NCBI RefSeq assembly: GCF_012516315.1
Contig: NZ_CP051185.1
Coordinates: 641,459-705,458, forward strand
DNA length: 64,000 nucleotides
Origin: Limnospira fusiformis SAG 85.79
GTDB taxonomy: Bacteria > Cyanobacteriota > Cyanobacteriia > Cyanobacteriales > Microcoleaceae
Reading direction: 5' to 3'
In this document: in pieces, positions 21,069 to 31,764 of the stretch
How the letters are laid out: the number at the start of each line of letters is the position of its first letter
Numbering within the stretch: the first letter of the stretch is position 1
Notes under the pieces: generated by a model
What the model saw: only the letters and a program-made list of their open reading frames with translations
Told to the model about the DNA's origin: nothing
Databases searched by the model: none
Translations under genes and position numbers: made by a program

Positions 21069-22958
21069 TTATAATACTGGAGCAAACCGTTCTTTTTCGG
21101 GAACTTCAGTGTATTCGGCTACAATTTGCCGAAATTCGTCTCCATCAATGGTTTCTTTTTCGATGAGTAAATCAACTAGGCGATCGATAACTTCGCGGTG
21201 ATCGCGAATGATTTGACAAGCATCTTGATAACAATGTTCGGCGATCGCTTTAATTTGAGAATCAATGCGGGAAGCAATTTGATTAGAATACTCAGTGCGG
21301 GTAGCAAAATCCCGACCCAGGAAAACCTCACCCTGGGAAGATTCCAGAGACAGCGGGCCGAGGTCAGACATACCATAACGAGTCACCATTTGACGAGCCA
21401 TTCCCGCCACCTGTTGCAGGTCTCCACCCGCGCCGGTGGTAACTTCGGCATCACCAAAGATCACATCTTCAGCGGCGCGACCGCCCAAAGCGCCGGTAAT
21501 ACGAGCGAGAATTTGAGAGCGAGAAATCAAACCCTGATCCTCATCAGGCATAAACCAGGTCAAACCGCGAGCCTGTCCACGAGGAACTAGGGTTACTTTT
21601 TGAACGGGATCATGATCTTTAATCAGAGTACCAACGATCGCGTGTCCGATCTCATGATAAGCAATCAGACGCTTAGTTTTACCATCAAGGAGGGGGGTTC
21701 CTTCCATACCCGCCACTACCCGATCAACGGCATCATCAATTTCCGCCATGGTAATAGCCTCCTTGCGGCGGCGGGCGGTGAGGATAGCAGCTTCATTAAG
21801 TAGGTTCGCCAGGTCAGCCCCAGTAAATCCGGGAGTCCGACGAGCGATCGCTTCCAGAGACACCTGATCGGCAAGTTTTTTATTGCGGGCGTGAACTTCC
21901 AAAACTGACAGACGGCCCTTAATATCAGGAGCATCGACTATAACTTGGCGATCGAACCTTCCTGGTCGCAACAAAGCCGAATCAAGAACGTCTGGGCGGT
22001 TAGTAGCAGCAATAATAATAATGCCCGTGTTACCCTCAAAACCATCCATTTCAGTTAATAACTGGTTAAGGGTCTGTTCTCGTTCATCATTACCGCCGCC
22101 AATACCAGCACCACGCTGGCGACCGACCGCATCAATTTCATCAATAAAGACGATACAGGGGGCAGTTTCCTTAGCCTTCTTAAACAAATCGCGGACCCTG
22201 GAAGCCCCAACCCCAACAAACATCTCCACAAATTCCGAACCAGAGATGCTAAAGAAGGGAACCCCAGCCTCACCAGCGATCGCCTTAGCCAGGAGAGTTT
22301 TACCAGTTCCCGGAGGTCCAACCAACAAAACACCTTTAGGAATTCTCGCCCCAACAGCCGTAAAGCGTTCCGGCTTTTTCAGGAAGGTAACCACCTCTTG
22401 GAGTTCTTCTTTAGCTTCCTCAACCCCGGCTACATCATCAAACAAAACCCCGGTTTTGGCTTCCATAGAGAAACGAGCCTTAGACTTACCGAAGTTCATG
22501 GCTTGACCAGGGCCACCCGGCACATTATTAGAACGGCGGAACAGGAAAAACAGTCCCACAATCAACAAAATCGGGAAAACCAAATTTCCTAAAAGTCCCC
22601 AAATCGCGCCATCATTACGGGGAGGGTGAGAGTCAAAGCTAATATTAGCAGCACGCAGGCGAGAAATTAGTTCCGGGGCGTTATTAGGCAAATCGACCCG
22701 TAGGCGCTGCACTCCATTGTCTAATTGAGGATCAATTGCCTCGACGATCGCCGTCCGTCCCCCCTCATATAGATCGACACTGGTAACGCGCCCAGCATCG
22801 AGATAATCTAAGAATCGGCCATAAGTCATGCGAGTGCTGGCTGTATTATTTTGGGCTATATCTGTCGGGGAAGCAGCAAAAGCACCCTGCCATAGGAAGA
22901 ACCCGATCACCAGAGCCGGGATCGTCCATAGCAGAATTGTTCTCCAAGACGTTTTCAT
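21069..22958 (-). CDS. ftsH: ATP-dependent zinc metalloprotease FtsH (FtsH2/Slr0228 type)
   Basis: This is a 629-residue membrane AAA+ protease. Two membrane segments (about 9-27 and 122-140) flank a small lumenal domain. The AAA+ module has Walker A GPPGTGKT at 214-221, Walker [10 protein letters not shown] and [23 protein letters not shown]. The M41 protease domain carries the zinc site HEIGH. The N-terminal [20 protein letters not shown] and [20 protein letters not shown] closely resemble Slr0228 of Synechocystis as I remember it. That protease degrades damaged D1 in photosystem II repair, usually as a hetero-oligomer with FtsH3. The paralog number is therefore an inference. A strong terminator follows. 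Confidence 0.95.
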
Positions 22959-23580
22959 AAATTCCGTTGCCTCTATGTCCTATACATCAGAAGTTTCTTA
23001 AAACTCAGCCCAGTTAATGGCTAAGATTAAAGATATTCATAATCTTAACTAAATTTAACGTAAGAGTCTGTGATCAGGCAACCAGGCCGGGGAGTTTAAT
23101 GGCCCGCTACAGTTGATGAGGGGGAAAAGTCCTGATACGGAAAAATATCAGTGGGATATAATCTGACAATGGGGGACAGCAGGCTATAATCCTAGGAATT
23201 GTAGTTAGAGATGATTATTTCGCGCGCGAAGTAGGGTAAAGTTACCGTTGTTGGATTGCCTATATCTAAATCTCAGGAAAGTTATAACTATGGGAGAATT
23301 GTCAGAAGGTTGCTAGACACTCAAACTCATATTTCTGAATTCAAGTTGTGAGAATGGGGCGGCAACGTGGCAATTAACATCGAAAGCATGAGATTTAAGT
23401 ACCCTGATGTACTGGTCAACTGGGTTGTGAGGCAACCCAAACGCTTCTTCTGATCTCAGCTTGACTGTTGAGAACTTTAGTTCCCGATGGCAAGTCTGAT
23501 GGCCGAAAGAAGAATCTCACGGACTTAGTCCCTCTGAGTGTCACAATTTTTGAGTCTTCGTGAAGTAACGGATTTTTCAG
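22959..23580 (+). promoter_or_regulatory. Long gene-free region between ftsH and parM-like gene
   Basis: No ORF of note lies in this 622 bp. It separates two divergent genes and must hold both promoters. The half nearest the parM-like gene (about 23330-23570) is rich in short complementary stretches, for example CTTCTT near 23442 and AAGAAGAA near 23509. This could mean a structured leader or a centromere-like site. No direct iterons and no known riboswitch were recognised. Confidence 0.35.
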
Positions 23581-24705
23581 ATGCAGAGTAACAAACAGCC
23601 CGGACAGTCACAGTCACAGTCACCGTTAGCTAAAGCTACCACTACCACAACCAAACCGACCACTACTACTGTAGTCGGCCGCTCAACGATTCTCAGCGTT
23701 GACTTGGGGAGAACCGCAACTAAATCTTGTATTAGTCGCAACCCCGCAGATGTGGTTTTTGTTCCCTCGAATGTTGCTCAAATGAGTGTAGAAAAAGCCC
23801 GTGGCGGTGGCTTTGAGTCGAAAAACACCGATCCACTGTTGGATCTATGGCTGGAATATCAGGGAAATGGTTTTGCCGTAGGTCAACTGGCTGCTGATTT
23901 TGGAGCAAGTCTGTTTGGCGTAGATCCCGCCGCCAACCCCTCCAAGGTGAACGATGCCCTAATTAAGATCTTTGCTTGTGTGGGATATTTCAACCTTAAA
24001 GGTGATCTTGATGTGGTGCTGGGCTTACCATTTTACTCTCAAGAACAGTTTGAGCGGGAGAAAGAACAAATTATTAGTCTCCTCACTGGACCCAATACGT
24101 TGGTCTTTAGGGGTGAGCAAGTAGTGGTTGATATCCAGAGTGTTCGGGTAATGCCAGAAGGCTATGGTAGCCTGATTTGGTGTGAAGCCCAGGGCAGCAA
24201 GGATGCGCCTAACTTTGCGGATCTTTCTGTAGCTGTTGTTGATGTGGGACATCAAACTACGGATTTCTTGACTGTGGATCGCTTCCGCTTTGCTCGTGGG
24301 GTTTCTCAGAGTGAAGTGTTTGCCATGAGTAAGTTTTATGAGGAAGTCGCCGCTAAGATTGAGGGAGCCGATGCTCAATCCCTATTCCTCCTAGAGGCAG
24401 TACATAAACCTCAAGGACAGCGTTTTTATCGTCCCAGAGGCGCGACTAAACCTGCTAACCTAGATGAAATTGTACCTGAGTTGCGTAAGGTTTTTGCACG
24501 GGATCTTTGCGATCGCGTGGTAAAATGGCTCCCAGAAAGGGTCACAGATGTAGTGATTACTGGCGGCGGTGGTGAGTTTTTCTGGCAAGATTTACAACCC
24601 CTGCTCAAAGACGCTCAGTTAAGAGCTCATCTGACTCAACCGGCTCGTAAAGCCAACGCCCTAGGACAATATGTCTATGGGGAAGCTCAACTAGCCAAAC
24701 GCTAA
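23581..24705 (+). CDS. parM: ParM/StbA-type actin-like protein
   Basis: This 374-residue protein belongs to the ParM/Alp actin-like ATPases that form filaments and push plasmids or other DNA apart. After a Thr-rich N-terminal tail (residues 1-37), the actin-fold motifs are visible. They are ILSVDLGRTATKSCI (phosphate 1), AVVDVGHQTTDFLTVD (phosphate 2) and VVITGGGGEFFW (adenosine motif). Length is typical. There is no obvious plasmid backbone around it, and housekeeping genes flank it. The downstream gene at 24837 may be its DNA-binding partner. A transport role in DNA segregation is known for the family. What it moves here is unknown. Confidence 0.85.
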   Translation: MQSNKQPGQSQSQSPLAKATTTTTKPTTTTVVGRSTILSVDLGRTATKSCISRNPADVVFVPSNVAQMSVEKARGGGFESKNTDPLLDLWLEYQGNGFAVGQLAADFGASLFGVDPAANPSKVNDALIKIFACVGYFNLKGDLDVVLGLPFYSQEQFEREKEQIISLLTGPNTLVFRGEQVVVDIQSVRVMPEGYGSLIWCEAQGSKDAPNFADLSVAVVDVGHQTTDFLTVDRFRFARGVSQSEVFAMSKFYEEVAAKIEGADAQSLFLLEAVHKPQGQRFYRPRGATKPANLDEIVPELRKVFARDLCDRVVKWLPERVTDVVITGGGGEFFWQDLQPLLKDAQLRAHLTQPARKANALGQYVYGEAQLAKR

Positions 24706-24721
24706 TTAATTGGTTTTTTTC

Positions 24722-24749
24722 ATCCCGTTGGGTGGTTTCTCAACGGGAT
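24722..24749. terminator. Hairpin between parM-like and partner gene
   Basis: ATCCCGTTG pairs with CAACGGGAT around a 10-nt loop. There is a T6 run upstream rather than downstream, so it is not a classic terminator for the plus strand. It may attenuate read-through to the partner gene or stabilise the parM mRNA. Confidence 0.45.
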
Positions 24750-24836
24750 AGCCTGTTTGGGGGTGAAATTAGATCTAATTACTGCTAAACTGGGTTAGTC
24801 CTCATTGGCAGGTCTGCCCATACGTCCTACCTAACT

Positions 24837-25427
24837 ATGCTCTGGGTTAATAAAAAACTTACGCAGTCGGTTACTTTTACTGAGGATGCTGCTGATCAAA
24901 CTCTGTTAGAGGCGATCGAAAAGGAGCTATCTCTCACCAAATATCAAACTTTTAGCAATCTCTGTAAACAGGCTTTGTGGCAGTTTCTGTTGAGTTCTCC
25001 CACCACACAGACCCCTGTGGTTAACAATGATTACCGCTCGGAAATTACCTCGGAAAGACCTGTAAACCCCCCTCCTAATCTAAAACCTATTGAAGAGGGT
25101 TTATTGAGTCTCCAGAGGCAATTAGGGGTTTTGGAGCGACAGCTACAAGCCCAAAAAACGGAAAATCAAACCCAACAACTTGAGAGTCAGGTTAATCAGT
25201 TAACCCAGCAGCTTGCTCAATTTCAGTCGGCGATCGCATCTAAACTAGATGCTACCAATGAGGCGATCGCTCAAATACCTAGTCAATTACCCCAAATTAC
25301 ATCACCTCCCCCACCACCAGAACCCCCTCGGTCAACTGCGCCATCTCCCCCACCACCAGAACCCGTCCACCCCCAAGAAGCCGACCCACTGCTTCAGCGT
25401 CTGAGTTCCCTGGTGGATGATTTTTAA
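24837..25427 (+). CDS. Candidate ParR-like adaptor (RHH plus coiled coil)
   Basis: This 196-residue protein starts with a segment compatible with a ribbon-helix-helix fold: LTQSVTFTEDAADQTLLEAI, then SLTKYQTFSNLCKQALWQFL (residues 6-50). A Gln-rich coiled coil follows (about 90-145: LQRQLGVLERQLQAQKTE and LESQVNQLTQQLAQF). A Pro-rich stretch with two PPPPEP repeats comes next, and a short acidic tail (LLQRLSSLVDDF). A DNA-binding head plus a C-terminal tail that contacts the filament is the ParR plan, and the gene follows a ParM homologue by 131 bp. The ParR role is an inference from layout, since sequence identity to known ParR could not be tested. Confidence 0.55.
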   Translation: MLWVNKKLTQSVTFTEDAADQTLLEAIEKELSLTKYQTFSNLCKQALWQFLLSSPTTQTPVVNNDYRSEITSERPVNPPPNLKPIEEGLLSLQRQLGVLERQLQAQKTENQTQQLESQVNQLTQQLAQFQSAIASKLDATNEAIAQIPSQLPQITSPPPPPEPPRSTAPSPPPPEPVHPQEADPLLQRLSSLVDDF

Positions 25428-26159: not shown

Positions 26160-28385
26160 TTAACGCCTAGCGCCAGAAGGCAATTGAGGAATAGGCTGTA
26201 AATCCCTAGGTAAAGCCGGACGATCCAAAGAATCAACACCCTGAATATCAATCAATTCGCCATCATCTTCAGGCAGAAGACCGAGTTCAGCCCCATTAAT
26301 AATAGCACCAAGTAACTTCGGCCGATATTTTTTCGGTCCAGTTTGCTCCTCATCAGTTTCCGTCAACTGATCAGCCAATTGATTCATCTGAGCCGACATA
26401 GTACAATTAGCTCTAGCCACCAAAACCATGCCATCAGTTAACGGTTCCAGAGTCAAGGCATCATTATGATCACTCCAAGCAGGTACATCGACAATCACCA
26501 CATCAAAGCGATGGCGCACCTCTTTAAGTAAACGTCGCATCTCACTAGACTCTAGCACCGCCGTCACTTGTTTTAAGGGACCCGGGGAGGGAATCACATA
26601 GAGATTTTCCACATCTGGAACCATGCGGATACAATTATTCAAATCTCCGTAATAGCGCAAAGGTTCCCAACGGTCTTGAGAATCAATAGCCAATCGCATT
26701 CTCTCAGCTTGGCTTGGCGATCGCAAATCTGCCTCAATTATCAAAGTCCGTTTTCCGGCTTTCGCGGAGGCGATCGCCAAATTATAGGCTGTCAGAGTCT
26801 TACCTTCCGGTCCCTTAGTGCTAGTCATCAACACCACCTTCGGAGGTTTTTGGCCGTTACTGAACAAATTACTACGCACCTGCTCATAAGGTTCCAAATA
26901 CCGAGAATTATGATGTAGTAGTAAAGGCATATCCCAATCCGCATGGTCATCCAAAACATTGGGAACCACCCCCAGAATCGGAATTTCTCGTTCTTTCAAA
27001 GCGCCCTGAATCTCCTCCCAGGTGTAGAATTTACCGCTAAGTATACCCAACGCAAAAATCAGCACCGCACCAACTATCACCCCACCAAAGCCACCCGCAG
27101 CCATGACCAGGATTAAACTAGGTGGTGGTGGTGGATCTTCCACATCAGGAGCCGCCGCCTCCTGAACCACCTGTAAACTGCTCACCGTTTCCGCTTCCGC
27201 CGCCTGAGCGTCAGCCAATTGCGCCTGCATTTTATCGTAGAGAGCCTGTCTATAACCCACCTGTTGTTCTAGCCGCATTTTCTCCATTTGCTTATTAGGA
27301 ATAGTGGCATATTCCCGTTCTAGTCTTTGTCCCACCTCACGGCTAGTAGCAATTTCTTGGAGTAGAGTTTCTTGCTGAGTTTGCAGGTTAATTAAATTTT
27401 GAGCAATTTGCTGTCGGGAGGGGTCTAAGGAAGAATCAACCCGAATTTGGTCAACCTGTCGCAGGGGAGCCGCCACTCCATGACCTCCGAGAACCTCAGA
27501 AGCTCTCGCTTGTAATTGCTGTTCGCTTGCCTGTTGTTGTTTAATTAAATCTGCTACCTGGGGATGAGCATCGGTAAAATCCTTACGGAGAAACTCTAAC
27601 TGAGACTCAATTTGATACAGTTGTACTCGCAATTGAGCAATAATTGGATCAGCGGTCAGCGCTTGGGAAACATAGGCCTGATCGACATTCAATCCTAGTC
27701 TACCTTCCAAACTAGCGATTTGAGCATTAATAGAATCCAGTCTCAATTCAAGCTGTTCTACATGATTTCTATTGGAAATAATCGACTGAGGTAAGGAACC
27801 ACTTGTGATCGCCAATAAAGTAGCGCCTTCTCGCCTATCATACTCTTCCAGAGTATTTTCAGCTTCTCTCAAGTCCGCTCTCGCTGGTCCCATGCGATCT
27901 TGAATTGTGTCGATAATATTGCGGAGTTGTTCGGTATTAATTAAACGGCTCTGTTCGATAATCTCCCGCATTAATACATTGACCACTTCCACAGAGCGAT
28001 CGCGATTATAATCTCTAAAGGTGACTTGAATTGTACCCGGTTGACCACCCTCTCCCGGTCTAATTTGAATCCTAGCGTTAGCACGAAAATCTCTAGGGGT
28101 AATCATCGTTTCATTTAACACCGCCTCAATCACACGGGGTTGTAGTAACATCCGGTCCGTGAGTTGTTGTCCTTGCTGTCGAATATTCTGACCTGTTTGG
28201 GAGAACAAAACGGGCGGATTTTTATAGGTTAAAACTCCTCTGGCTTCGTAGGGAGGTCTTGGCGGCGCTTCCAAAATCATACCCACCCCCCCAGAAATTC
28301 CCAACGCTACTACAAAGGCGGCTAATCCAGCAACTTTATAGTTTTCAAAGGCGATTAAATAGCGTTTAACAATTGGTAAAGTCAT
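26160..28385 (-). CDS. Wzz/Wzc-like polysaccharide co-polymerase with kinase-like ATPase domain
   Basis: This is a 741-residue bitopic inner-membrane protein that sets chain length and drives export of extracellular polysaccharide. It has an N-terminal Wzz domain with TM1 (about 16-36), a long periplasmic coiled-coil region (about 150-410) and a Pro-rich segment leading to TM2 (LILVMAAGGFGGVIVGAVLI). A cytoplasmic BY-kinase-like domain follows, with MTSTKGPEGKTLTAYNLA (Walker A), TLIIEADLRSPS (Walker A') and VVIVDVPAW (Walker B). The C-terminal tail is Pro/Leu-rich and has no tyrosine cluster, unlike E. coli Wzc. Autophosphorylation in the usual manner is therefore doubtful. It lies between the SLBB export protein and the phosphopantetheinyl transferase. 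Confidence 0.88.
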   Translation of the reverse strand: MTLPIVKRYLIAFENYKVAGLAAFVVALGISGGVGMILEAPPRPPYEARGVLTYKNPPVLFSQTGQNIRQQGQQLTDRMLLQPRVIEAVLNETMITPRDFRANARIQIRPGEGGQPGTIQVTFRDYNRDRSVEVVNVLMREIIEQSRLINTEQLRNIIDTIQDRMGPARADLREAENTLEEYDRREGATLLAITSGSLPQSIISNRNHVEQLELRLDSINAQIASLEGRLGLNVDQAYVSQALTADPIIAQLRVQLYQIESQLEFLRKDFTDAHPQVADLIKQQQASEQQLQARASEVLGGHGVAAPLRQVDQIRVDSSLDPSRQQIAQNLINLQTQQETLLQEIATSREVGQRLEREYATIPNKQMEKMRLEQQVGYRQALYDKMQAQLADAQAAEAETVSSLQVVQEAAAPDVEDPPPPPSLILVMAAGGFGGVIVGAVLIFALGILSGKFYTWEEIQGALKEREIPILGVVPNVLDDHADWDMPLLLHHNSRYLEPYEQVRSNLFSNGQKPPKVVLMTSTKGPEGKTLTAYNLAIASAKAGKRTLIIEADLRSPSQAERMRLAIDSQDRWEPLRYYGDLNNCIRMVPDVENLYVIPSPGPLKQVTAVLESSEMRRLLKEVRHRFDVVIVDVPAWSDHNDALTLEPLTDGMVLVARANCTMSAQMNQLADQLTETDEEQTGPKKYRPKLLGAIINGAELGLLPEDDGELIDIQGVDSLDRPALPRDLQPIPQLPSGARR

Positions 28386-28462
28386 GGCAATCTCAGGATT
28401 TTGGGTAATAGCAATTTGGTATTTACAGCCTTTTCAGTAATCATGCCATAGGCCGTCAAAGT

Positions 28463-28484
28463 CCCTCTCCCCCATGGGAGAGGG
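28463..28484. repeat. CCCTCTCCC hairpin, probable dispersed repeat
   Basis: CCCTCTCCC and GGGAGAGGG form a perfect 9-bp stem with a CCAT loop between the SLBB gene and the Wzz-like gene. It is followed by ATTTAGGGTGAGGG, a tail that accompanies similar hairpins dispersed in many cyanobacterial genomes. It may also reduce read-through. Confidence 0.55.
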
Positions 28485-28547
28485 ATTTAGGGTGAGGGTA
28501 ATGTTTAGCACAATTTATCAACAAGCTGTATACCTTTAATTATTCTG

Positions 28548-30143
28548 TTATTGGTCGGGTCCAAATAATCGTTCAGCCGAGTTAATGAGTTGTTGAAAGA
28601 AGAGAGTAAAACCGAGGACATCGCGAAAGGGTTGGGTAAAGTTATTGAGAAACACAGTGACCTGGGTAATCAGATTACGATTAATCACAATCACATCTTC
28701 ATCTTGTAGTAGAATGTTGTCGGTTTGGTCTCCTCTAAGTACATTTTTACCATTCAGAATCTGAGTAGTTGTTTGTCGAGATTGTCGGTCATATCGAATC
28801 AGGGCAATTTTATCGAGGTCTCCAGTTTGTAAAGGTACATTGGCGAGGATATCAATAAAGGTGCTACCATTGGGTAAGGCTACAGCACCGATCGCATTTC
28901 CGGCATAACTAAGAATTCTGACGGTAATTTGCTGGTTAACTAAAGTTGAACTAGCCACTAATTTGCGATCGTAGTCTCTCTCATCCACATCAGGAGCTAG
29001 TGGTAGTACAATCACCGAATCACCATTAGATAGAGAAACATCCGGGAGAGCCGTAGCTTCTGCTAAGGGTGTATATAGATCTATGATATCTTCTAAAACT
29101 CGACCATCAACGGTAGTGCGACAAACTAGGACGGTACGCAAATCAGCAGTTAATGTCGCACCTCCGGCCGCTAACAGAGCCGTAGAGACGCGAGAACCCC
29201 CAGCCGGGAGGGTATAGAAACCTGGTTGCACAACTTCCCCAACGACGGTTACTTGGGCGGGAACTGGTGCAGCAGCCAGACTATAATTTTCTAACAGATC
29301 TCGCTCTACGCCTTCTGATGGGCTAACCTCCATAGTGGGAACTGTAATCACATCGCGATCGCTTAGGCGAATATTAGGCGGTTCCATACCCAATAATAGG
29401 GGGGTAAATAGGTCGATTTGGGTTTCGAGGGTTTGTCCGGTGGGTAAAGTCCGGCGCACAGTAATCCGTCGTAAATCTGCCCCTGGTCTAGTTCCCCCCG
29501 CCGTAGTCAAGGCGACAATTAGCTGTGGTGATGGTAGGGGATAAAAACCTGGTCTGGCAATTTTTCCGGTCACGGTGACTTGTACCGGTCGCTGATTGAC
29601 CAGAGAGACGACAACTTCAGGGTTTCTGACAAATTGAGCTAGGCGGGGTTGAATATTCTGGCGCACCTGTTCTAAGGTTAATCCTTCCAATTCCACTAGA
29701 CCAATTAAAGGCATAGCTAGGGAACCTTGAGGACCAATGGTAGCATTGGGAATAGTTAATTCTTGGGAACGCTGACCATTGACAAACACATCAATAAAAA
29801 TCTGATCTCCAGGTCCTAGCTCATAACTTTTCATGCGATCGCCAACAGGGCCTTCAAACACAGAAGGTTCCACCGGAATACCAGAGGGTCTGGTCTGAAT
29901 GGGAGCATCCACATTGCGGAAAAGCTCTAATAGTGTAGGCCAGTCCGGTTGTACTGGTGCGGGTTGTCCGCCGCCTCTCGGTAGGGGTTGATTCACAAAG
30001 GAGCGAGGTAAGATGCACCGATCAGGTATCCTTTGAGCCATAGACTTTCCGCCACTGGTGATGATGGCTAAAGGAATAATACTCGCCACTGAGTAGAGAC
30101 TGGTGAGGAATAGGGATTTAATCGGGTTGAGGTTAGCGCCCAT
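28548..30143 (-). CDS. Polysaccharide export protein with SLBB domains (Wza-like)
   Basis: This 531-residue protein starts with a hydrophobic signal (SLFLTSLYSVASIIPLAIIT). A Poly_export domain follows at about residues 105-185 (SYELGPGDQIFIDVFVNGQ, then LAMPLIGLVELEGLTLEQV). At least two SLBB repeats come next (VTVTGKIARPGFYPLPSPQ and VTVVGEVVQPGFYTLPAGG), and a third, weaker one near residue 410. Such proteins form the periplasmic/outer-membrane channel for capsular or released polysaccharide. It works with the Wzz-like protein encoded 162 bp downstream and lies just downstream of the cyanoexosortase genes. Confidence 0.9.
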   Translation of the reverse strand: MGANLNPIKSLFLTSLYSVASIIPLAIITSGGKSMAQRIPDRCILPRSFVNQPLPRGGGQPAPVQPDWPTLLELFRNVDAPIQTRPSGIPVEPSVFEGPVGDRMKSYELGPGDQIFIDVFVNGQRSQELTIPNATIGPQGSLAMPLIGLVELEGLTLEQVRQNIQPRLAQFVRNPEVVVSLVNQRPVQVTVTGKIARPGFYPLPSPQLIVALTTAGGTRPGADLRRITVRRTLPTGQTLETQIDLFTPLLLGMEPPNIRLSDRDVITVPTMEVSPSEGVERDLLENYSLAAAPVPAQVTVVGEVVQPGFYTLPAGGSRVSTALLAAGGATLTADLRTVLVCRTTVDGRVLEDIIDLYTPLAEATALPDVSLSNGDSVIVLPLAPDVDERDYDRKLVASSTLVNQQITVRILSYAGNAIGAVALPNGSTFIDILANVPLQTGDLDKIALIRYDRQSRQTTTQILNGKNVLRGDQTDNILLQDEDVIVINRNLITQVTVFLNNFTQPFRDVLGFTLFFQQLINSAERLFGPDQ

Positions 30144-30164
30144 ATCAACACTGTGGATAACTGT

Positions 30165-30884
30165 TTATTCTGGCTGGAAAATCGTGGTCATCAATTCTTT
30201 TTGGATATCCTGACCGAGGGATTGAGCTATAGTTGCCACTGTTTCTATGTCACCCAAAGGCTCCATAGGAATCATAATACTGACAGCTACCCAGGGAGCG
30301 CGATCGCCTCTTAGTTGAGCTTGGCGATCGGCAAAAAACCAGTGACTTGGTGCGGGAGAACCGCCATTATGCCAAGCGTACCATTGTACAAGGGCATAGG
30401 TTTGGCGGGGGTTCCAAGCCCGAAAAAATCTGGCGTTAATTGTCACTGGTTGGGGGGAGTCTAGGGTCAATTGCAGGGTACGATGGGAGTCAGTTCTGAG
30501 GCTCTGTAACCCTTGCAGATCCATCCATTCGACTTGGGGCTGGTCTTTATAATAGTTTTGGGGAAACAGCAATAGCAGGACTTCGGTATCATTTTGTTTG
30601 AGGCTCTGCAAAGACCATCTCCTCGCCCCCACTTGAATGGTATCGTGACTGGTAGTTTCCCACCCTGGTACGGTTAAACCCTCACGGCGAATGGTTTGCA
30701 GTTGAGGGAGAGCTTGAATATCAGGCATATCTGACCAGGACCAGCCACCCCGAAAGAAACCGGGAAGGGTCCCTACCAAAAATAGGACTAGGAGAAATCC
30801 CAATAGTACCCATTGAGAGGGTTTTAGCTGTAGTTTGGGGGTTTCATGGCTGGTGGGTTCAAGATTCGGGGCTGATTTGTCCAT
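30165..30884 (-). CDS. Cyanoexosortase B system-associated protein
   Basis: This is a 239-residue protein with one membrane segment (about residues 26-44, VLLGFLLVLFLVGTLPGFF) and a soluble extracytoplasmic domain with many aromatic residues (ALVQWYAWHNGGSPAPSHWF). This architecture, immediately downstream of a cyanoexosortase and overlapping it by 26 bp, matches the EpsI-like partner found beside cyanoexosortase B. The partner's biochemical role is not established. The arrangement suggests translational coupling. Confidence 0.8.
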   Translation of the reverse strand: MDKSAPNLEPTSHETPKLQLKPSQWVLLGFLLVLFLVGTLPGFFRGGWSWSDMPDIQALPQLQTIRREGLTVPGWETTSHDTIQVGARRWSLQSLKQNDTEVLLLLFPQNYYKDQPQVEWMDLQGLQSLRTDSHRTLQLTLDSPQPVTINARFFRAWNPRQTYALVQWYAWHNGGSPAPSHWFFADRQAQLRGDRAPWVAVSIMIPMEPLGDIETVATIAQSLGQDIQKELMTTIFQPE

Positions 30885-31764
30885 TATCTTCGGATTCCTC
30901 TTGCTCAGGGAAATAATATTGCATTAATTTCATCACAATCACCAATAGACCCAACATAGAAGCAGAATATAGGTCTCCTCCCCACCCTTCATGAAGCCAA
31001 TCAAAAAGTTCTTGATTACCTGTGCCGAAAAACAGAGTTAATAGGGTATTGCGGATAATATTCGCGACAATACTCGTCAAAGCTGCTGCCACCAAGAAGA
31101 GGATGGTTTTGGTTCTCGAAGCGATCGCACCCGTCCAGTACAATAACATTAAACCGACATACAGACTGGTAAATAACATTTTCAGGCCAGCACAGTGTGG
31201 CGCAACCTCAACAATTTGTCCATTTACATAGAGATAGATTTGATCTACTGTCACCGGGACGTTAAACTGGATCAGAACAAATCCCGCCATATTAGCGATA
31301 AAGGTTTGTAGAGGCAGGGCTAAAGGCTCTATCAGATAGGGGATATGGTTAGGGGTTGCCAGTAGCACAAATAATAAGGCTATCCCCTGCAATTTTAACC
31401 CAGGTATTCCTTTTAGCCAGAGGCAGAGTCCGGCTAGAATCATCGGAAAGGACAGATTGACTAAATCGGAGATACTACTGAGGTAGAAAACGCCACCGAG
31501 TCCTAATAATACTCCCCCCAAGGGGTGCAGTTGATTGGGTAGTTTGTTCCACTGGTGGCGGTTATTCCATGCAATATAAGCCGCGAAGGGTAGACCAATT
31601 ACGCCGTGGCTAAAATATTCATGTTCGATGCTAATGCTTTTGTTCAGCCAGCCATCGTACCAATGCACGAGCAAAGGGCCGTATAATAACACCAACAAGG
31701 CGCAAGCCAATCCGATAAATAGATTTCGCTCTATCGCCACAGGAATTTTCGGTTGAGTTTCCAT
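30859..31764 (-). CDS. crtB: Cyanoexosortase B
   Basis: This is a 301-residue polytopic membrane protein of the exosortase family, predicted cysteine transpeptidases that recognise PEP-CTERM-like sorting tails and cut or transfer the protein. About eight hydrophobic segments are present. The catalytic triad is visible: Cys in VEVAPHCAGLKMLFTSLYVG, Arg in ANIIRNTLLTLFFG and His in WLHEGWGGDLYS. The symbol crtB follows the exosortase naming and must not be confused with phytoene synthase. It is followed by its associated protein and the polysaccharide export genes. No clear PEP-CTERM substrate was found in the window. Confidence 0.88.
   Translation of the reverse strand: METQPKIPVAIERNLFIGLACALLVLLYGPLLVHWYDGWLNKSISIEHEYFSHGVIGLPFAAYIAWNNRHQWNKLPNQLHPLGGVLLGLGGVFYLSSISDLVNLSFPMILAGLCLWLKGIPGLKLQGIALLFVLLATPNHIPYLIEPLALPLQTFIANMAGFVLIQFNVPVTVDQIYLYVNGQIVEVAPHCAGLKMLFTSLYVGLMLLYWTGAIASRTKTILFLVAAALTSIVANIIRNTLLTLFFGTGNQELFDWLHEGWGGDLYSASMLGLLVIVMKLMQYYFPEQEESEDNGQISPES

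Follow-up and report, generated by a model that had tools for sequence, protein, structure and literature searches.

Two adjacent genes were analyzed on the forward strand of a 64,000-nucleotide stretch of the Limnospira fusiformis SAG 85.79 genome (contig NZ_CP051185.1; hereafter the window, whose positions are used throughout): fcmB (corM; 23581–24705), which starts with ATG and encodes an actin-like ATPase of 374 amino acids (aa), and fcmC (corR; 24837–25427), which also starts with ATG and encodes a ParR-like partner of 196 aa. An initial annotation, made from the letters alone, had placed both frames exactly and described them as a chromosomal ParM with a new-looking partner. The pair is indeed chromosomal: it lies on a single contig of 6,423,694 bases, where the locus is present once. 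The partner turned out not to be new, as it belongs to an NCBIfam family of its own (FcmC, NF052682; 129.8 bits, curated cut-off 90 bits) and has a published function. FcmB scored 658.2 bits against NF052678 (curated cut-off 300 bits, E-value 3e-198). The window pair is very probably the Arthrospira-type version of FcmB–FcmC (CorM–CorR), an actin cytoskeleton that filamentous cyanobacteria adopted from plasmid segregation and use in shaping their cells. For its group the locus is an ordinary one, representing a system that has already been published.

The actin-like character of FcmB was borne out by matches to ALP_N, FcmB and CorM far above chance. In Pfam, ALP_N (E 1.5e-16) and MreB-like_C (E 1.9e-7) were both above cut-off. 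The closest solved structure by sequence was CorM (PDB 9rmi; E 2.6e-148 across residues 22–372), which we take to be the protein of the 2025 preprint by Springstein et al., where the pair is reportedly named CorM and CorR. The plasmid ParM model PRK13917 gave 44.8 bits, below its cut-off of 417, and a PHROGs family labeled 'partition protein' matched at E 1e-34; phage records yielded only four matches, at 22–24% identity. A stretch rich in Gln, Ser and Thr (residues 1–33; 23581–23679) precedes the actin fold, the CorM match beginning at residue 22 and the ALP_N match at residue 40. All three nucleotide motifs named in the initial annotation are present, and each is largely invariant among 25 aligned FcmB sequences: the phosphate-1 motif SVDLGRTATK (residues 39–48; 23695–23724; S39, D41, G43, R44, T45 and K48 invariant), the phosphate-2 motif VDVGHQTTD (residues 220–228; 24238–24264; V220, D221, G223, H224, Q225, T226 and D228 invariant) and the adenosine motif TGGGGEFFW (residues 327–335; 24559–24585; T327–G330, F333 and F334 invariant). 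The genome carries one FcmB and one MinD above cut-off. Against MreB_Mbl (PF06723), it contains one MreB at 463 bits and seven other places at 29–72 bits, and fcmB is not among these eight places (E 0.001). Since a separate MreB is present, FcmB adds to MreB and does not replace it.

FcmC is a divergent protein, with 29–53% identity to 33 aligned relatives, and no PDB sequence matched it at an E-value under 0.07. Its structure model (mean predicted local distance difference test score, pLDDT, 69.5) contains helices at residues 18–33, 39–53, 83–146 and 184–195. The first two lie in an N-terminal head (residues 1–55; 24837–25001) that begins with the basic and aromatic sequence MLWVNKK, by which FcmC may touch the membrane. 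We compared a profile of 19 FcmC heads with ribbon-helix-helix (RHH) sequences from 23 of 32 cyanobacterial RHH_1 loci (nine were left out) and with an HTH_3 set from 9 of 10 loci. The RHH_1 set gave an hhalign probability of 71 and a score of 25.3 over residues 20–55, that is, the two helices with the strand excluded; the HTH_3 set gave a probability of 0.2, and 30 column-shuffled RHH sets reached at most a probability of 3.8 and a score of 14.5. Because the probability over the two helices was high and the controls were low, an RHH fold is the best reading of the head, by profile and not by structure. Single FcmC sequences matched RHH_1 weakly (2 of 19 members, best E 0.0039, amid unrelated weak matches), and the best hit of the head profile among solved structures, ORF56 (2k9i), presumably an RHH protein, was not significant (E 1.1). 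In the monomer model, the two head helices have pLDDT values of 52–79 per block of ten, and residues 1–15, the expected position of the strand, fall below 50. A structure search with the model (15 chains) returned coiled-coil matches and weak unrelated head matches; no RHH entry appeared, which does not exclude the fold. Thus, of the RHH-like head initially proposed, the two helices are supported and the strand is not modeled in the monomer.

The head is followed by a predicted coiled coil (residues 83–146; 25083–25274; model helix with pLDDT about 77–95 per block of ten). Pfam matches of FcmC to Baculo_PEP_C and similar families were set aside, as they were under cut-off and reflect coiled-coil similarity. 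The coiled coil and the PPPPEP sequence read in the initial annotation are both there; the Pro-rich part, taken for a tail, is a linker (residues 147–182; 25275–25382) that varies among relatives, and the protein ends in a conserved helix, DPLLQRLSSLVDDF (residues 183–196; 25383–25424). This helix was compared in 89 FcmC sequences (the window's, 79 from named loci and nine others, with many near-identical Nostoc sequences among them): the protein ends in DF or EF in 89 of 89, and DP occurs within the last 16 residues in 87 of 89. Outside the head no other part of FcmC is as constant, the Pro-rich stretch in particular not being conserved, and this makes the helix the leading candidate for contact with FcmB. 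The C-terminus of ParR binds ParM, and by analogy we assign the FcmC tail to the same role as a candidate FcmB-binding element. By eye, a second head-like helix pair (ISFSDWVKQRL) follows the first in two FcmC proteins from 3.0-Mb genomes of another order (L161, 2732–3283; L162, 2085–2663), both of which score under the curated cut-off.

We then surveyed 386 genomes of the phylum and, separately, 80 named loci. FcmB was above cut-off in 62 of the 386 genomes and FcmC in 58. The 62 genomes hold 64 FcmB places, 62 of which (one per genome) are followed by an FcmC match (E ≤0.001) on the same strand; the other two are second copies, in genomes G030 and G245. In four genomes (G027, G085, G241 and G374) FcmC is under cut-off and correctly placed, and a profile built from 80 FcmC sequences detects it at 46–73 bits. 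Likewise, fcmC lies downstream of fcmB in 79 of the 80 named loci, the 80th sequence stopping 153 bases past fcmB. The two genes are therefore neighbors in relatives, as the initial annotation had expected. All 12 sampled genomes of the window's own family, its own included, carry FcmB and FcmC above cut-off, and the nearest named relatives are Arthrospira sp. PCC 9108 (97% identity) and then Lyngbya aestuarii (78%). The spacing of the two genes, measured from match to match, exceeds 100 nt in five of the 62 genomes (G000, G157, G255, G262 and G320), all of the window's family, and is 33–87 nt in the other 57.

FcmBC was described by Nguyen et al. (mSphere, October 2025; PMC12645912, cited here and below for the accessible part of its text) as a system that once partitioned plasmids and has taken on a new role in the cell shape of Nostoc punctiforme. 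Cells without fcmB or fcmC were wider and rounder, FcmB formed membrane filaments around the cell that required FcmC, and contact between FcmB and FcmC was positive in a two-hybrid test (PMC12645912). In the same text, nucleoid distribution in both mutants is described as without obvious change, the system is derived from a plasmid partition system, and the fcmBC loci that the authors inspected by hand were chromosomal (PMC12645912). Among the literature matches listed for FcmB, none besides this paper was relevant; CorMR matched none, and those listed for FcmB or FcmC with plasmids or dynamin held no further paper on FcmB. We infer that this behavior carries over to the window's organism. FcmB would polymerize into filaments in an ATP-dependent manner, FcmC would dimerize through its RHH head and coiled coil, and the conserved C-terminal helix of FcmC would contact FcmB. 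FcmC would tether the filaments to the cytoplasmic membrane, where they would encircle the cell and determine its width and shape. The ancestor of the pair would have been a plasmid ParMR machine whose DNA cargo was lost.

Several points weigh against this reading. The structure model of FcmB is poor (pLDDT 57), too poor for a structure search, and that of FcmC is middling, with no modeled RHH strand. The Arthrospira pair is known from its genes alone, the functional data coming from N. punctiforme. Arthrospira cells are disc-shaped and not rods, so that a rod-versus-round phenotype is not directly transferable. Residues that presumably face DNA are polar in most FcmC proteins (S11 in 76 of 89 and T13 in 70 of 89, counts that include the many near-identical Nostoc), and most of the family therefore cannot be said to have lost DNA binding; judged by sequence, such a loss does not appear to be general. 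Moreover, a DNA site was sought only at the fcmB–fcmC locus, and one may lie elsewhere in the chromosome.

The genes around the pair encode aminopeptidase P, FtsH, phosphopantetheinyl transferase and polysaccharide-export proteins. ftsH (21069–22958, reverse strand) is the divergent neighbor of fcmB, separated from it by the intergenic region at 22959–23580 (forward strand), and is conserved in this part of the tree: it lies upstream of fcmB in 16 of the 80 named loci. Each of these is of the Microcoleaceae/Oscillatoriaceae type, as judged from its name or, in the case of L074 and L088 (a bin labeled Richelia), from its place in the tree. Downstream, the gene for phosphopantetheinyl transferase is common to the window and the other Arthrospira only. 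Further on, 26160–31764 holds, on the opposite strand, polysaccharide-export genes (Wzc-like and Wza-like) and an exosortase (EpsH); the Wzc-like kinase matches P-loop families that include ParA (CbiA, AAA_31), as is usual for such kinases. In a Pfam scan, none of the ten flanking proteins belonged to a replication, relaxase or integrase family, in agreement with the initial description of the neighbors as not of plasmid type. The window contains no tRNA genes, and the GC content of 21–27 kb (0.45–0.50) is inside the range of 15–33 kb (0.36–0.50). Within the gap of 131 bases between the fcmB and fcmC frames, which are on the same strand, lies a hairpin with a perfect 9-bp stem and a 10-nt loop (24722–24749, forward strand). 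Arthrospira sp. PCC 9108 (L062, 6134) has an identical stem and an altered loop. The hairpin is not read as a terminator, since neither strand has a T run after the stem.

FcmB domains also occur outside this gene arrangement, in Nostocales, fused to an additional N-terminal head. Two such frames are the second FcmB copies of G030 (L158, 2335–3876; 514 aa) and G245 (L159, 2078–3658; 527 aa). Four are on plasmid records (L182, 4485–6023; L183, 4146–6044; L184, 4488–6047; L185, 2488–4047), the plasmids being those of Nostoc sp. N6 (pNPM2), Dolichospermum sp. UHCC 0315A, and Trichormus variabilis ATCC 29413 and 0441; three of the four are typed as conjugative by PLSDB. These plasmid proteins have 52–56% identity to the window FcmB across about 90% of its length, whereas the other 40 of 44 matching plasmid records are more distant (23–28% identity among the 21 listed). 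The fused head, of about 150 aa (longer in Dolichospermum), contains a hydrophobic helix and a coiled coil, is weakly YtxH-like and is predicted to be membrane-anchored. The annotated plasmid genes begin within the frame and thus omit the head, and no FcmC match was found alongside any of the six frames. In a tree of 48 rows (29 of the 80 named loci were used; L184 and L185 have identical frames, and the latter was left out), the five distinct fusions formed one group (support 100/100) within the Nostocales FcmB branch (97/99), beside chromosomal Calothrix FcmB (95/87), with weak intermediate forks (80/67 and 84/70). The head fusion thus has a single origin and nests inside host FcmB. The phosphate-2 Asp is replaced in three of the five and retained in two.

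Of the 386 genomes, six have the same head, and two of these have it on dynamin-like GTPases (L180, 1–1983; L176, 1438–3438; Dynamin_N E 2e-17 and 2e-18, with weak LeoBC matches). By eye, it also occurs on a formylglycine-enzyme-like domain (L177, 535–1944) and with a zinc-ribbon-like tail (L178, 1495–2175). On two of the plasmids, a gene of about 336 aa lies directly upstream of the fusion (L182, 3464–4477; L184, 3474–4484) and shows, by eye, an HNH-like stretch and glycine-zipper-like segments; for the L182 copy, Pfam gave nothing at E 0.001 and LeoBC a weak match (E 0.0014). As a tentative and rather doubtful possibility, a chromosomal FcmB may have been recaptured by mobile DNA as a plasmid-borne head fusion, which could join or anchor to host FcmB filaments, bypassing FcmC, and so place the plasmid or a membrane-remodeling machine, or disturb the shape of the host cell. 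That the fusion acts on the host cytoskeleton at all is conjectural. As the fcmBC loci inspected by Nguyen et al. are chromosomal, the plasmid fusions are an exception for the FcmB domain and not for the FcmBC pair. This clade is the newest observation here and a side lead of moderate weight.

The initial annotation had suggested that the filaments could position polyploid chromosomes or another cargo, and had advised a search for a repeated DNA site bound by the RHH protein. On the chromosome view, fcmBC would still be a segregation system of the ParMRC type that moves the polyploid chromosome. The ParM ancestry visible in the ALP_N, PRK13917 and PHROGs matches would suit this role, as would the RHH-like head and the polar residues at the presumed DNA face of most FcmC proteins. 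However, ten of the 89, of the Okeania/Trichodesmium type (L064, L065, L068–L071, L076, L079, L087 and L166), carry D or E at position 11 together with F at position 13. A periodicity test (lags 8–24, compared with shuffled sequence) picked up a period of 11 nt in front of the R1-type parM on the E. coli plasmid pC15-1a, a stretch that we take to be parC (34 matches, a count that none of 100 shuffles attained, their maximum being 32). By contrast, no 11-nt-type periodicity appeared in the window upstream of fcmB (74 of 100 shuffles as high for 600 nt, 41 of 100 for 300 nt) or in the gap (77 of 100), DNA sites elsewhere not being sought. Upstream of fcmB in 80 relatives, two sequences exceeded all 50 shuffles, which is about the chance rate. 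A repeat-copy test was dropped for low power, and is uninformative because it could not single out its R1-type parC control (three copies against a shuffle maximum of four, and four against four). With this test, the region upstream of the window fcmB was not above shuffles, five of the 80 relatives scored higher than each of 20 shuffles, none strongly, and one of eight flanks of four plasmid-type ParM genes was above shuffles (L168), a flank of L169 being spoiled by N. The fcmB–fcmC gaps of L063 and L064 have four repeat copies against at most three in 10 shuffles; their repeats (a pair of 18-nt copies in the former and, in the latter, three degenerate copies of 30 nt) were rejected as parC, as they are not shared with each other or with five other gaps. 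Together with the nucleoid distribution of the N. punctiforme mutants, for which the accessible text reports no obvious change (PMC12645912), the periodicity result and the altered residues of the ten FcmC proteins make continued chromosome segregation very unlikely.

The second proposal of the initial annotation, an integrated plasmid, fares differently according to its age. As remote ancestry it agrees with the published view. As a recent integration or a remnant it could draw on the four Nostocales plasmids with FcmB-domain genes, but those genes encode fusions to the head, have no FcmC match and are nested in the Nostocales FcmB branch. Furthermore, the pair is found across families, its order with ftsH is common to related genera, its base composition is like that of its neighbors, and neither the ten flanking proteins nor the tRNA-free window points to an integration; we regard a recent event as exceedingly improbable. 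A search of 72,556 plasmid records with FcmC returned nothing at E 0.01; it covers near relatives only, as the protein changes fast. A different alternative accepts the FcmBC system and supposes that in Arthrospira it has shifted from rod shape to trichome width or helical coiling, with the long Pro-rich FcmC linker as an adaptation. The last 60 residues contain 17 prolines in the window FcmC and 16 in the other Arthrospira, compared with 10 in Lyngbya, and many other FcmC proteins have few. Nevertheless, linkers vary freely across the family, distant FcmC proteins are as Pro-rich or nearly so (20 in L165, 18 in L162, 14 in L161 and 13 in L172), which rules out a linker unique to Arthrospira, and the window protein, at 196 aa, is within the 168–209 aa of 17 Microcoleaceae-type FcmC proteins. 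There is no link from linker to coiling, and the literature matches listed for Arthrospira ParM and helical trichomes held nothing relevant. This shift is also very improbable, though slightly less so than either of the other two alternatives.

Taken as the FcmB–FcmC cytoskeletal system, the window copy places FcmBC in the lineage of the edible cyanobacterium Arthrospira. Because cells of this lineage are not rods, the copy is informative about what the system really controls. Three observations add to the accessible text of PMC12645912: the FcmC neighbor universal in our sample, the conserved FcmC tail and the plasmid head fusions. The first, a recognizable FcmC beside FcmB in 62 of 62 genomes, the four under cut-off included, bears on the doubt that the authors, with a set of 126 species, raise over FcmB-only species (PMC12645912). 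The last means that FcmB-domain proteins do occur on plasmids, as fusions whose head is omitted by the deposited gene starts.

Among known systems, MreB likewise has the actin fold and contributes to cell shape, and the window's genome has a separate MreB. The plasmid type II partition system ParM–ParR–parC likewise pairs an actin-like ATPase with a small RHH-type partner encoded after it; unlike this system, the window pair is off plasmid, lacks parC-like periodicity upstream and is distant in sequence from the plasmid ParM model. The ParM proteins of Desulfitobacterium hafniense, in another phylum, are likewise chromosomal, a likeness drawn by description only from the accessible text of PMC12270681. 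The closest counterpart is the FcmB–FcmC pair of N. punctiforme (Npun_R4472 and Npun_R4471; PMC12645912). The window pair comes from another cyanobacterial branch, has a longer FcmC linker and is known at the gene level; in families, gene order, strand and chromosomal location, the two pairs are the same.

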